A DNA stretch of 64,000 nt, from NCBI GenBank assembly GCA_017619715.1, contig JAFZRS010000002.1, forward strand, positions 1 to 64,000. Reading direction: 5' to 3'. The stretch comes from Oscillospiraceae bacterium (GTDB lineage Bacteria; Bacillota; Clostridia; Oscillospirales; Oscillospiraceae). The notes under the pieces are model-generated. The model did not search any database. It was given only the letters and a program-made list of their open reading frames with translations, and had not been told where the DNA came from. The translations under genes and the position numbers were made by a program. Shown here piece by piece: positions 5,141-52,030 of the stretch (positions are counted from its first letter, which is position 1; each line of letters opens with the position of its first letter).

Positions 5141-5169
5141 TTGTATTTTAAGGTGTGCCGTGCTATAAT
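5141..5169 (+). promoter_or_regulatory. Promoter of the HprK-like / PqqD / ABC cassette
   Basis: TTGTAT (5141-5146), 17-bp spacer, TATAAT (5164-5169). Transcription should start near 5176, which fixes the first gene's start at the ATG at 5213 rather than further upstream. Confidence 0.85.
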
Positions 5170-5212: not shown

Positions 5213-5950
5213 ATGACCACATTTCACATCTCTCTTGCCGGTCGGACGATTGCCGTGCAGGCGCAGTACGATTTTGCCCGGCAGTTTTGCCGGGATTATC
5301 TGACCGGTGACCCCAAAGCCGTTATCGAGGCGTCCGCCTCACCGGAGGATATCCGGCGGGACATGGAGGAAGCCTCTACCGGTTCGCCGGCATATGCGGA
5401 GATTTTGGGCATCTATCGGTCCATTGCCGAACAGCTGCCTCAATTCGACACCTTTTTGGTACACGGCGCCGCCGTCTCCTGCGGTGAGAAAGCGTATCTC
5501 TTTACCGCGCCCAGCGGCACGGGAAAGAGTACGCATATCGGTCTTTGGAAACGCTATCTGGGTGACCGGATCGACATCGTAAACGGCGACAAGCCCCTGC
5601 TGCGCCTGCAGGGGGGGCAGGTGGACGTGTGTTCCACCCCCTGGGCGGGGAAGGAGCGGTGGCAAAAAAACCGTATCGTGCCGCTGGACGGCATCTGCCT
5701 GTTGCACCGGGGGACGGAAAATCGCATTCGTCCCATTGCGCCGGGTAACTATCTGGACGAGCTGATGCATCAGGTCTATCTCCCCACCCGAGCCGAGACT
5801 ATGGTCATCACATTGCATCTTTTAGACGAGGTGCTGCGGCGGACGCCGCTGTACCTGCTGGAGTGTGACATCTCGGAGCAGGCGGTCCGCACCTCCTTTG
5901 AAGCACTGACCGGGCAGCCCTATGCCTGCCCTGCGGAGGACGCTCTATGA
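5213..5950 (+). CDS. HPr kinase-like P-loop protein of a peptide-maturation-type cassette
   Basis: Predicted cytoplasmic P-loop protein of 245 residues. A Walker A motif (APSGTGKST, about residues 99-107) follows a strand reading VHGAAVSCGEKAYLF, the arrangement seen in HPr kinase C-terminal domains, and VNGDKPLL lies about 20 residues further on. Relatives of HPr kinase occur in lasso-peptide and other RiPP clusters, where some phosphorylate the peptide; that role here is inference. It is much shorter than true HPr kinase and lacks the N-terminal half. The ATG at 5213 has GAGGTG upstream; an in-frame ATG at 5180 would lie almost at the transcript start, so I reject it. It overlaps the next gene by 4 bp. 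Confidence 0.75.
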   Translation: MTTFHISLAGRTIAVQAQYDFARQFCRDYLTGDPKAVIEASASPEDIRRDMEEASTGSPAYAEILGIYRSIAEQLPQFDTFLVHGAAVSCGEKAYLFTAPSGTGKSTHIGLWKRYLGDRIDIVNGDKPLLRLQGGQVDVCSTPWAGKERWQKNRIVPLDGICLLHRGTENRIRPIAPGNYLDELMHQVYLPTRAETMVITLHLLDEVLRRTPLYLLECDISEQAVRTSFEALTGQPYACPAEDAL

Positions 5951-6381
5951 ATCATCAGTCTATTGAGGATATCCTCGCTCAAAACGGAATATACGTCAGT
6001 CCCACCGTGGGTGTGAGTATGCGGCCCATGCTGCGTCAGGGCAAAGACCGGGTGATCCTGATGCCGCCGCAGGGGCGGCTGAAAAAATACGACGTGCCGC
6101 TGTACCGCCGGGGAAAAGACTACGTACTGCACCGCATTGTGGCGGTGCGCCCTGATGACTACGTGGTGTTGGGCGACAACTGCATAGCGCGGGAATATGT
6201 ACGGGACGAGCAGATCATCGGCGTGCTGACCGGCTTTTACCGGGGTGAACGGTATGTGAAGCTGACGGATCCCTTTTACCGCGCCTACCGTTTTCTGTGG
6301 CAGGGCACATGGCCGCTGCGGCGTCTTCTCTCCCGGGTGCGGAGTATCGCAGGTCGGGTTGTGCGCCGGATCATACGGTAA
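5947..6381 (+). CDS. S24/S26 family peptidase, signal-peptidase-like (SipW/ER type)
   Basis: 144 residues. Type I signal peptidase motifs are visible: GVSMRPML with the nucleophile serine, then YVLHRIVAV where a His stands where bacterial signal peptidases usually have the catalytic Lys, then VLGDNC. The Ser-His pattern matches the SipW/eukaryotic branch. No N-terminal membrane anchor is evident; the C-terminal end (residues about 115-144) is basic, with a short hydrophobic stretch around YRFLWQGTWPL. Being between an HprK-like and a PqqD-like gene, it probably removes a leader from a small secreted or modified peptide, though no substrate is recognised. The ATGA overlap with the upstream gene indicates translational coupling. 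Confidence 0.8.
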   Translation: MNHQSIEDILAQNGIYVSPTVGVSMRPMLRQGKDRVILMPPQGRLKKYDVPLYRRGKDYVLHRIVAVRPDDYVVLGDNCIAREYVRDEQIIGVLTGFYRGERYVKLTDPFYRAYRFLWQGTWPLRRLLSRVRSIAGRVVRRIIR

Positions 6382-6428
6382 TGGGGATCAATACGCGCGC
6401 CGCGGCGCGACACAGGAGGGTTAAACGA

Positions 6429-6689
6429 ATGAAACTGAAAAAAGGCTTCGTCAGTCAAAAAGTGGCAGGTCGCTGGCTGCTGGTTGCCGTGGGCAACAAC
6501 GATTTCACCGGCTTCATGCACGGGAACGACACCACCGCATTTATTGCCGAGCTCTTGCAAAAAGACACCACCGTGGACGAGATGGTAGACGCCATGTATG
6601 AGCAGTATGACGCGGATAAGGAAACGCTGCGCGCCGATCTGGAACGGGTACTGGACCAGCTCCGGAGCATCGGTGCCATTGAAGAGTAA
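6429..6689 (+). CDS. PqqD-family (RiPP recognition element-like) protein
   Basis: An 86-residue protein with the PqqD shape: an N-terminal beta segment (FVSQKVAGRWLLVAVG), FTGFMHGNDTTAFIAELLQKDTTVDEMVDAMYEQY in the centre (split across two helices), and a C-terminal helix DLERVLDQLRSIGAI. PqqD domains bind leader peptides of ribosomally made, modified peptides and pass them to the enzymes. The start ATG at 6429 has AGGAGGG upstream. It lies between the peptidase and the exporter in one transcript. No radical SAM partner or precursor is recognised nearby, so its peptide is unknown. Confidence 0.85.
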   Translation: MKLKKGFVSQKVAGRWLLVAVGNNDFTGFMHGNDTTAFIAELLQKDTTVDEMVDAMYEQYDADKETLRADLERVLDQLRSIGAIEE

Positions 6690-6709
6690 CGCCGGAGGGA
6701 CCTCCCGCC

Positions 6710-8377
6710 ATGAAAAGCCGTGATACGCTTCGGTGGCTGTGCCGAAGCGTCAAAAAACGAATCGGAGCTCTTATTCTGATGACGCTGTCCAGCGCGGGCG
6801 GCGCCTATTTGAGCGTGCGCTTTGCGCTGGGTACCCGCTCTGTGATCGACAGTGCCGTCAGCGGCGACCGGGACGCCTTTTTCCGCGCTGCGTCGGCGTT
6901 AGCGGCGGTGATTGCCGGAATCATTGTGCTGCGTATGCTCCAGCGTCATCTGCATGACAATACCGAGGCGAAGTTGGATCGGGACTGGAAACGCCGTCTG
7001 CTGCATCTGGTGCTTCACGGCGAGTATCGCGCCGTATCCTCCTATCACAGCGGCGAGCTGATCAACCGGCTCAACAATGACGTACGGATCGTAGATGACG
7101 GGCTTATCTCCGTACTGCCCAATCTGGCGTCCATGGTTACCCGGCTTGCGGCGGCAGTATGGGTTTTGGCGAGCATGGAGCCGCTGTTTACCCTTCTTCT
7201 GGCGGCAGGCGGCGCCGCCGTGGTGCTGATTACGAGTTTACTGCGCCGCCTCATCAAGAGTTTGCATAAGCGTGTGCAGGAGGCGGACGGCAGGCTGTCC
7301 TCCTTCTTGCAGGAGACGATTGAAAAGCTTCTGCTGGTGCAGGCGATGGACGTATCGGAGGAGGCGGAGCGCCGGGCAGACCGGCTGCTGGAGGCGCGCT
7401 TCGCCGTGCAGCGGCGGCGGAAAAACATCGGGTTGGGCGCCAACACCTGCGTCAATATCCTCTGCTTTGCGGCGGAGTTTGCCGCGCTGGTGTGGTGCGC
7501 GTTCCGTCTGCTCCACGGCTCCATCACCTTCGGCACTTTCACCGCCATCGTGCAGTTGGTGGGACAGTTGGAAGGTCCCGTGGTGAATGTCTCGGGCATC
7601 ATTCCCAAGTACATTGCCATGCTGGCAAGCGCCGAACGGCTGATGGAACTGGACGCTTTGTCCCGTCCGGTCGTTCCCTCCGCCGATCCCGCCGCCCTCT
7701 ACGCCGATATGACGGCACTGTGCGCCGAGGATCTCTCCTTTTCCTATGAGGATGAGGAGCTTCTCTCCCACGTGAGCTTCTCCATTCCCAAGGGCAGCTT
7801 TGTGGCGGTAACAGGTCTATCCGGCATCGGGAAAAGCACCCTGCTCAAGCTGATGCTGGGGATCTATGCGCCCACCTCCGGCACGCTCACCGCCGCCGGA
7901 CCGGACGTTCCTCTCGACCGCGCTACCCGGCGTCTTTTTGCCTATGTGCCACAGGGAAATCTCCTGTTCAGCGGTACGCTGCGGGATAACCTGCTGATTA
8001 CCCGCCCCGACGCCACCGAAGACGAGATCGTCCACGCTCTGCATGTCAGCGCTCTGGACGACGTAGTTGCCCAGCTTCCGCAGGGACTGGAAACGGTACT
8101 GGGCGAAAACGCCGCGGGACTGTCCGAAGGTCAGGCACAGCGCTTGAGCATCGCCCGCGCTATTCTCAGCGGCGCGCCTGTTTTGATGCTGGACGAGGTG
8201 ACCTCCGCTCTGGACGCCGCCACCGAGCGCACTGTATTGGAGCGGATTGCCGCGATGCCCGGCTGTACCTGTATCGCTGTCACCCACCGTCCGGCGGCTT
8301 TGGAGATGGCGCACTACAACCTCTGTTTTTCCGATACCGGCATTAACCTGCTGCCCGGACCTGTCGCCCGGGGGTGA
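6710..8377 (+). CDS. ABC transporter, fused membrane and ATPase domains
   Basis: 555-residue half-exporter of the MsbA/peptide-export type. The N-terminal half (about residues 20-300) carries six predicted membrane segments; the C-terminal half is an ATPase with Walker A GLSGIGKST (K at residue 375), signature LSEGQAQRL, Walker B VLMLDEVTSALDA and the switch VTHRP. There is no N-terminal C39 peptidase domain, which fits a separate S26 peptidase being supplied by the operon. GGAGGG precedes the ATG at 6710. Last clear gene of the cassette; the substrate is probably a peptide but this is inference from neighbours. Confidence 0.88.
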   Translation: MKSRDTLRWLCRSVKKRIGALILMTLSSAGGAYLSVRFALGTRSVIDSAVSGDRDAFFRAASALAAVIAGIIVLRMLQRHLHDNTEAKLDRDWKRRLLHLVLHGEYRAVSSYHSGELINRLNNDVRIVDDGLISVLPNLASMVTRLAAAVWVLASMEPLFTLLLAAGGAAVVLITSLLRRLIKSLHKRVQEADGRLSSFLQETIEKLLLVQAMDVSEEAERRADRLLEARFAVQRRRKNIGLGANTCVNILCFAAEFAALVWCAFRLLHGSITFGTFTAIVQLVGQLEGPVVNVSGIIPKYIAMLASAERLMELDALSRPVVPSADPAALYADMTALCAEDLSFSYEDEELLSHVSFSIPKGSFVAVTGLSGIGKSTLLKLMLGIYAPTSGTLTAAGPDVPLDRATRRLFAYVPQGNLLFSGTLRDNLLITRPDATEDEIVHALHVSALDDVVAQLPQGLETVLGENAAGLSEGQAQRLSIARAILSGAPVLMLDEVTSALDAATERTVLERIAAMPGCTCIAVTHRPAALEMAHYNLCFSDTGINLLPGPVARG

Positions 8378-8380
8378 GCC

Positions 8381-8449
8381 ATGCGGCAAACCGCACAGCA
8401 AAGGAATTGCGAGAATCTCTCCGTCAATTCTGTTGAAGATCTGCGATAG
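8381..8449 (+). CDS. Possible 22-codon ORF coupled to the ABC gene
   Basis: ATG at 8381 lies 3 bases after the ABC transporter stop, with GGGGGTGA just upstream, and reads 22 codons to TAG at 8447-8449, shortly before the terminator. The peptide is polar (begins MRQTAQQRNCENLS) with a single Cys. Its position at the end of a maturation/export operon makes it a conceivable precursor or vestige, but it has no leader-core organisation that I can recognise and may simply be 3' UTR. Confidence 0.22.
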   Translation: MRQTAQQRNCENLSVNSVEDLR

Positions 8450-8465
8450 TGACACACCAAAAAAG

Positions 8466-8493
8466 GATCCGTGGCTTCATAAAGCCACGGATC
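8466..8493. terminator. Bidirectional terminator after the ABC cassette
   Basis: A 12-bp stem GATCCGTGGCTT / AAGCCACGGATC with a 4-base loop, flanked by A-rich and T-rich runs, between convergent genes. Confidence 0.85.
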
Positions 8494-50617: not shown

Positions 50618-52030
50618 TCATACGATCTCACCGAACAGCGCCCACGTGTTGCTGTCGGTGATCTTGACATTTTGATACGTACCTACGGCGGACGGATCGC
50701 CTGTCAGGTGTACCAGCCTTCCGCCTGCCGTGCGGCCCTCCAACGGCCACCGCAGATCGCCGCTCTCGCCGTCCGCCAGTATACGGACGGTGCTGCCCAC
50801 GTAGCCGGCGTGGATCTGCGCGGAGATGGCGTTTTGCGCCGCGCACAGCCGGTCGAACCACATCTGCTTTTCACTGCGCGGCACCGGGTCGTCCATTTTG
50901 GCGGCAGGGGTGCCGGGTCGGGGGGAGAAGATGAACGTAAAGAGCGCGTCAAAACGCACCTTTTCCACCAGCGCCACCGTTTCCATCGCCTCCGCCTCCG
51001 TTTCGCCGGGGAAGCCGATGATCACGTCGCTGGTCAGCACCAGATCGGGCATCACCTTGCGGGCATAGGTAATAAGATCGAGATACCGCGCCGTGTCGTA
51101 AGGGCGGTTCATGGCGCGCAGTACCCGGTCCGAGCCGGACTGCACCGGCAGATGGAGCTGGTGTGCCACGTGGCGGCTTTGCGCCATGGTGTCAAACAGC
51201 TTATAGCTGGCGTCCTTGGGCTGGGAGGACATAAAACGAATGAGATAGTCGCCGGGAATCTCGTCCGCGGCGGCGAGAAGATCGGCAAAATCCCAGCCTA
51301 TACCCAGATCCTTGCCGTAGGAGTTCACGTTCTGACCCAGCAGGGTGATTTCTTTGTAGCCCGCCTCTGCCAGTTCCCTTATTTCGGATAAAATCTGTTC
51401 CGGGCGGCGGCTGCGCTCCCGACCCCTCACGTAGGGGACGATACAGTAGGAGCAGAAGTTGTTGCAGCCGTACATGATGGATACCCAGGCACGGAGCTTA
51501 TCCTGCCGCACCACGGGAATTCCCTCGGCGATCTGACCCGGCTCGTCCGCCACGCTGAATACCCGGCGGCGGGACGTATAAACCCGGCACAAAAGCTCCG
51601 GGAAACGCCACAGCGCTTGCGGACCGAACACCAGATCCACATGTCGGTAAGACGTGCGTATTTTCTCCGCCACTTCCGGACGCTGCGCCATACAGCCGCA
51701 AAGGCAGATCACCTGTTCGGGGTTTGCTTTCTTCGTATGGGTCAGCGCGCCGAGGTTCCCGTAGACCCGCTGTTCGGCGTGCTCGCGAATGGCACAGGTG
51801 TTCAGCACCACCACGTCCGCCTCTTCCGCGCGGTCGGCAAACGCAAAACCCATCTCCGAGAGCATGCCGCGCAGCAGTTCGCTGTCCGCCTCGTTTTGCT
51901 GACAGCCGAAGGTGTCCACCAGCGCCCGGGGCGCCGTGTTTCGCCCGGCAAATATATTTTGCACCTGCTGCGTATATTGACGCTGCCGGGCAAGTTGATC
52001 GTCCGGCACGAAGATTTGCTTTTCCTTCAA
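50618..52030 (-). CDS. miaB: tRNA-2-methylthio-N6-dimethylallyladenosine synthase
   Basis: 470-residue radical SAM methylthiotransferase. N-terminal domain with TFGCQQNEADSE and the Cys residues of the auxiliary cluster (NTCAIREHA, LCGCMAQR), the radical SAM CNNFCSYC motif, and a C-terminal TRAM domain. The start is TTG at 52028-52030, with GGGAGG about 6 bases upstream; no ATG is nearer. First gene of the long minus-strand operon. Confidence 0.95.
   Translation of the reverse strand: MKEKQIFVPDDQLARQRQYTQQVQNIFAGRNTAPRALVDTFGCQQNEADSELLRGMLSEMGFAFADRAEEADVVVLNTCAIREHAEQRVYGNLGALTHTKKANPEQVICLCGCMAQRPEVAEKIRTSYRHVDLVFGPQALWRFPELLCRVYTSRRRVFSVADEPGQIAEGIPVVRQDKLRAWVSIMYGCNNFCSYCIVPYVRGRERSRRPEQILSEIRELAEAGYKEITLLGQNVNSYGKDLGIGWDFADLLAAADEIPGDYLIRFMSSQPKDASYKLFDTMAQSRHVAHQLHLPVQSGSDRVLRAMNRPYDTARYLDLITYARKVMPDLVLTSDVIIGFPGETEAEAMETVALVEKVRFDALFTFIFSPRPGTPAAKMDDPVPRSEKQMWFDRLCAAQNAISAQIHAGYVGSTVRILADGESGDLRWPLEGRTAGGRLVHLTGDPSAVGTYQNVKITDSNTWALFGEIV

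Follow-up and report, generated by a model that had tools for sequence, protein, structure and literature searches.

The window analysed here is a stretch of 64,000 nucleotides (positions 1 to 64,000 of contig JAFZRS010000002.1) from the metagenome-assembled genome (MAG) of an Oscillospiraceae bacterium (GCA_017619715.1; completeness 98%, contamination 0.7%). It contains four closely spaced genes on one strand, termed K, S, B and D, of which K and S overlap by 4 bp (ATGA) (Table 1). An initial annotation of the window had described them as a cassette for a ribosomally synthesized and post-translationally modified peptide (RiPP), encoding an HprK-like kinase, a peptidase, a PqqD protein and an exporter. 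Protein profiles, folds and gene placement bear out this gene content. The annotated start at 5213 stands; the annotated end at 8449 overshoots, since the exporter gene stops at 8377. The proposed terminator hairpin was recovered, and the proposed promoter sequence is present with a -35 box under the scan threshold. Below, L, G and C numbers denote loci, genomes and contigs, respectively; G000 is the source genome, and L003 is G000:C8.

Table 1. Features of the window cassette and of the radical SAM locus on contig C8.
Feature	Position	Strand	Basis or remark
K, HprK/PEPCK-fold P-loop kinase, LppK-like, 245 aa	5213..5950	+	fold, motifs, tree
S, signal-peptidase-I-like (archaeal/SipW type) serine peptidase, LppS-like	5947..6381	+	profile, residues, fold
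B, PqqD-type RiPP recognition element, LppB/lasso B1-like, 86 aa	6429..6689	+	profile
D, MsbA-like ABC exporter, membrane and ATPase domains fused, no C39 peptidase, 555 aa	6710..8377	+	
Probable promoter, TTGTAT - 17 bp - TGcTATAAT (extended -10)	5141..5169	+	read from sequence
12-bp hairpin with T tail, terminator shared with convergent gene	8466..8493	.	found by scan
Cassette of 2017-aa secreted protein, precursor, radical SAM/SPASM maturase, second PqqD and mucin-like lipoprotein	contig C8		
Radical SAM/SPASM maturase	L003 7626-9083 (G000:C8)		3' of 2017-aa secreted protein
Shared C-terminal domain, ~260 aa	L003 6700-7494		also in L113, L157, L158, L217, L219

The K protein matched no Pfam family. 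Its AlphaFold model (pLDDT 92.5) is closest to the solved folds of HPr kinase (1kkl, E=2e-6) and PEP carboxykinase (Z 12.5, rmsd 3.9 over 220 residues), and its invariant elements are H84, the Walker A motif (P-loop) GTGK105 and Asp126 in GD126KP. S matches the NCBIfam archaeal-type signal peptidase I (TIGR02228) with E=2e-5, under the family cut-off. Its Ser24 and His62 are invariant among 10 homologues, Asp87 occupies the expected position of the third catalytic residue, where most homologues have Asp or Glu, and the predicted fold is closest to signal peptidase I (SpsB, SipA) and LexA. No N-terminal transmembrane segment was found in S, and its active site is therefore probably cytoplasmic. 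B scores 53 bits against Pfam PqqD (PF05402, cut-off 23.4), and its family profile matches the lasso protein TbiB1 (2e-8) and PDB entry 9x8z (2e-5), which is LppB. D is of the MsbA/CydC type (MsbA_rel, 221 bits), and the annotation of an exporter lacking a built-in peptidase proved correct.

This gene set equals K-S-B-D of the linear polyphosphorylated peptide (LPP) cluster lppAKBSDN from Paenibacillus alginolyticus (Popov et al., Nat Commun 2026, PMC13381572). The LPP genes encode the precursor LppA, the HprK-like LppK, the PqqD-type LppB, the signal-peptidase-like LppS (Ser, His, Asp), the MsbA-like LppD and the NTP transferase LppN. LppK puts several phosphates on one core serine, and LppB presents the precursor to LppS, which removes the leader; gene deletions showed that the set makes polyphosphorylated, leader-cleaved peptides in Bacillus (PMC13381572). 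Each window protein has the features of its LPP counterpart: K the HPrK/PEPCK superfamily fold with the invariant residues, S the archaeal-type signal-peptidase-I-like domain with Ser, His and Asp, B a discrete PqqD-type recognition element, and D an MsbA-like exporter. The systems also share a [Y]xxP leader with a serine shortly after it, frequent proximity to capsule genes and the lack of a cyclase. The RiPP reading and the lasso-like toolkit proposed in the initial annotation thus fit the LPP family.

The module recurs widely. Its distribution was studied in 297 genomes of the order and in 25 genomes of the genus; the named relatives are mostly animal-gut MAGs. The peptidase was found in 91 of the 297 genomes, and the kinase-PqqD-peptidase module is present in roughly a third of them. 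The initial annotation had suggested conserved gene order and a conserved short peptide gene as checks of its proposal, and both were observed. Of 95 S genes whose neighbourhoods were examined, 69 have a same-strand PqqD gene no more than 300 bp away, and 59 have a kinase gene at a distance of up to 1.5 kb. An ABC exporter is part of 38 loci, and a PF14907 nucleotidyltransferase lies close to the module in 18 other loci. Locus L013, from the cultured Bifidobacterium simiarum, has the kinase, PqqD and peptidase together with a candidate precursor. In L011 (8001-9008) an HprK-like kinase is fused to a PqqD-like domain, and in L135 (8860-10374) an open reading frame (ORF) of ~500 aa joins a signal-peptidase-like domain to a PF14907 nucleotidyltransferase. 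These fusions support a joint function of the module genes. A peptidase-containing ORF of similar length, ~500 aa, is present in L144 (5689-7179); the domain scan covered L135. In many genomes the trio is isolated amid housekeeping genes, as in the window, and some modules adjoin genes for Wzz, CpsB-like proteins and sugar transferases. Plasmid and phage collections gave weak matches only.

The short peptide gene that recurs with the module encodes the pattern MKKxYxxPxxEIxxFxxxDVIxTSG followed by a variable core. The precursor profile matches 78 of the 297 genomes, of which 71 are peptidase-positive (Fisher p=2e-41); without the genomes that trained the profile, the count is 54/61 (p=5e-33). 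The serine after the D-V-I motif is kept in 57 of 61 distinct precursors. Satellite precursors tend to lie near large secreted proteins: 23 of 32 have a gene for such a protein (400 aa or more) no further than 400 bp away, compared with 34 of 135 background genes (p=1.6e-6). In genome G261, 13 precursor-like genes are scattered over many contigs (e.g. L288, L294, L295). On G003:C12 (L291 6814-7737), a small secreted protein is encoded between two precursor-like ORFs, and the group stands next to a 1544-aa secreted protein, with no enzyme nearby.

The window has no match to the precursor profile, and comparison with the closest relative of the cassette (L004) revealed no further conserved small ORF in it. 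The source genome holds three precursor-like genes outside the window, each adjoining a large secreted protein. On contig C8 the gene for the 38-aa peptide MKKKFFEPEANIVILSENDVIVTSGCPVIPGQTAPDEF (C8:15564-15680) separates the giant gene from the radical SAM gene and has a strong Shine-Dalgarno sequence. Contigs C20 and C23 carry two copies of an identical 39-aa peptide, MKRRYQYPELEIEMLETNIIRTSTLTYEEEDPGADGGEL. The C20 gene is flanked on both sides by secreted-protein genes, and the C23 gene lies upstream of a close relative of the downstream secreted protein of C20. The description of the cassette as orphan therefore holds inside the window and fails at the genome level. The two options left open by the initial annotation, a precursor encoded elsewhere, or phosphorylation and cleavage as the modification, both fit the LPP model.

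We consider it likely that this is a divergent RiPP pathway of the LPP type, with the shared core (lppK-S-B-D) in the window and the precursors encoded in trans. By analogy with LPP, B would bind the [Y/F]xxP-type leader of the 38-39 aa precursor, and K would (poly)phosphorylate the conserved serine that directly follows the D-V-I-x-T motif. B would also present the substrate to S, which would then remove the leader in the cytoplasm, and D would export the linear phosphopeptide. The candidate substrates in the source genome are the C20/C23 peptide and the C8 peptide. The latter has its own radical SAM/SPASM maturase and a second PqqD, and probably uses a second kinase encoded on contig C27.

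Several observations weigh against this interpretation. The link between the core and the precursors rests on co-occurrence, with no precursor in cis. The C20 match had E=0.04 before its inclusion in the profile. Contigs C8, C20 and C23 have a GC content of 0.52-0.56 compared with 0.59 in the window, and their tetranucleotide correlations with the window are 0.91, 0.78 and 0.81, respectively; these differences and the MAG status of the assembly make their membership in the source genome less certain. The LPP leader motif (YxxPxVLxHQxIxFETxxS, Px9Fx[T/A]; PMC13381572) was not found in the cluster, and the three trans precursors combine [Y/F]xxP and a later serine with another motif. No homologue of LppN (PF14907) was matched in the source genome. 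Finally, the window kinase falls outside the kinase clade common to radical SAM genomes, and the C8 branch could for this reason be a separate pathway.

Since neither the leader motif of LPP nor LppN was found here, we regard the system as a divergent LPP-like variant and not as a strict member of the family. It also differs from LPP as follows: precursors are encoded in trans beside giant surface proteins and not in the cluster, the leader ends in DVIxTS and not in FETxxS, an accessory radical SAM/SPASM branch is present, and the hosts are Oscillospiraceae-like Clostridia, whereas LPP hosts are Bacilli. The RiPP family reported from Bacilli in 2026 would extend to a large group of Clostridia, and the precursor family described here is present in about one in four of the genomes sampled from the order. 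Precursor genes of this kind can lie far from the enzymes, beside giant surface proteins, and cluster-based mining would miss such systems.

The initial annotation also described the cassette as having no modifying enzyme. This is true of the window; elsewhere the genome encodes the radical SAM/SPASM maturase of contig C8 with its own PqqD, and the C27 kinase. The C8 enzyme is closest to the TIGR04463, Clo7bot (TIGR04334) and PapB maturases, and it exceeds the cut-off of no named radical SAM/SPASM family (best TIGR04463, 114 bits, cut-off 525). It is present in 6 of the 297 genomes, all peptidase-positive (p=0.0024 for the five others). Among the 25 genomes of the genus, the enzyme and a close K go together without exception: both are present in the same five and in no other (p=2e-5; 9e-5 without the source genome). 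The radical SAM gene has a short precursor-like ORF as its immediate neighbour in L113, L157, L158, L217, L218 and L219.

Precursors at radical SAM loci contain cysteine in 9 of 10 cases, compared with 12 of 51 others (p=1.3e-4); in few of those 12 does the cysteine follow the TS motif. The C8 precursor has a cysteine, and a Cys-linked crosslink, thioether or similar, is a reasonable guess for its product. The maturases of ranthipeptides and Cys-rich peptides (TIGR04463, TIGR04334, PapB) are closest to the C8 enzyme, whose precursors usually contain cysteine. The C8 enzyme differs in that it scores far under their cut-offs, one of the ten precursors lacks cysteine, and it is paired with a kinase and a signal-peptidase-like module. 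A second comparison is with the SynChlorMet cassette (TIGR04249-04251): K has a weak match to ScmC (E=0.009), and L149 has an ScmE-like radical SAM enzyme beside kinase, PqqD and peptidase genes, but these scores too are far under the cut-offs. In L149 (7105-11971) and L016 (990-11953), PqqD, Cys-containing precursor-like ORFs, ScmE-like radical SAM enzymes, a divergent kinase, the peptidase and an ABC exporter are clustered.

The window cassette and the C8 locus may also be two independent systems, the former serving the C20/C23 peptide only and the latter forming, with the C27 kinase, a RiPP pathway of its own that does not depend on the window. We regard this as possible, if somewhat doubtful. 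The genome has two PqqD and two kinase paralogues, and in the order-wide tree the C27 kinase belongs to a supported clade with kinases of other radical SAM genomes, from which the window kinase is absent. On the other hand, one peptidase of the S family was found in the source genome, and genome G017 has a window-type cassette and a radical SAM locus with a single kinase of the family, though it is 73% complete. In addition, a single cluster in L113 (G063) and in L125 (G262) encodes the radical SAM enzyme as well as PqqD, the kinase and the peptidase, which is why the two halves look split between C8 and C34 in the source genome.

The recurring neighbours give a clue to the role of the phosphopeptide: they encode large secreted proteins, and some loci have capsule genes. 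The giant secreted proteins at radical SAM loci have a common C-terminal domain, whose C8 copy has no match in Pfam. This domain is found in 21 genomes, 18 of them peptidase-positive (p=9e-8), with up to 8 copies per genome (G295). On G287:C57 (L221 4771-9624), a giant protein with the domain occurs together with a tailed lipoprotein (...IDLPFIP); the peptidase was not found in G287. In L099, L125, L219 and L288, the C-terminus of a neighbouring secreted protein repeats that of the precursor core (EGDNGTGWG in both in L099). This resemblance has p=1e-4 and 7e-4 at the discovery loci and p=0.057 in an independent satellite set, and is suggestive of mimicry between core and tail. We speculate, very tentatively and with the odds against it, that the system is a dispersed one: a central phosphorylation, cleavage and export core would serve satellite precursors beside giant surface proteins, the modified peptide would bind, anchor or regulate the protein next to it with the help of core-mimicking lipoprotein tails, and the radical SAM crosslink made in some genomes would turn the phosphopeptide into a hybrid RiPP.

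Of 18 small, low-complexity secreted proteins in the loci that end in a short conserved C-terminal tail, 12 are encoded no more than 600 bp from the module (p=3e-6). The tail pattern is nearly unique within each genome; in the C8 lipoprotein it reads FELPPDYLN, and the gene overlaps that for PqqD by 4 bp. The true substrates could be these tailed proteins and not short peptides, which seems improbable to us, as most loci lack such proteins, which have no leader motif and bear Sec signals or anchors, and short precursors with the leader motif are far more widespread. Tail lipoproteins had been our first idea of the likely substrate, and were dropped because the tail is near-unique per genome and the short precursors explain more.

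Even less probable is that the cassette is what remains of a lasso cluster of the paeninodin type after loss of the cyclase and the B2 peptidase. Paeninodin and pseudomycoidin systems have the same kinase and nucleotidyltransferase types as LPP (PMC9266682). They resemble the window cassette and its relatives in the HprK-like kinase acting on a precursor serine, the PqqD-type B1, the ABC exporter and the PF14907 nucleotidyltransferase, which is present in relatives of the cassette (PMC7533575, PMC9266682). They differ in having B2 where a serine peptidase is found here. Dozens of lineages have this signal-peptidase-like enzyme, its catalytic residues intact, together with the kinase and PqqD, and the gene set equals that of LPP. 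No cyclase was seen among the recurrent neighbours, and neither a lasso cyclase (C) nor a B2 peptidase was recognised by eye near the cassette, with no whole-genome profile search made. The modules beside Wzz, CpsB-like and sugar-transferase genes might suggest a role outside RiPP synthesis, in which kinase and protease would control the making of capsule or cell envelope and PqqD would be their adaptor. This is hardly credible given that LPP clusters also occur in capsule loci (PMC13381572) and that precursor and peptidase co-occur so strongly.

Two other features of the window were noted. The ORF at 50618-52030 bears a radical-SAM motif and is judged by context to be a MiaB-like housekeeping gene. 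The gene divergent from the cassette, adenylosuccinate-lyase-like by eye, has a perfect TTGACA-17-TATAAT promoter on the minus strand (5085-5057).

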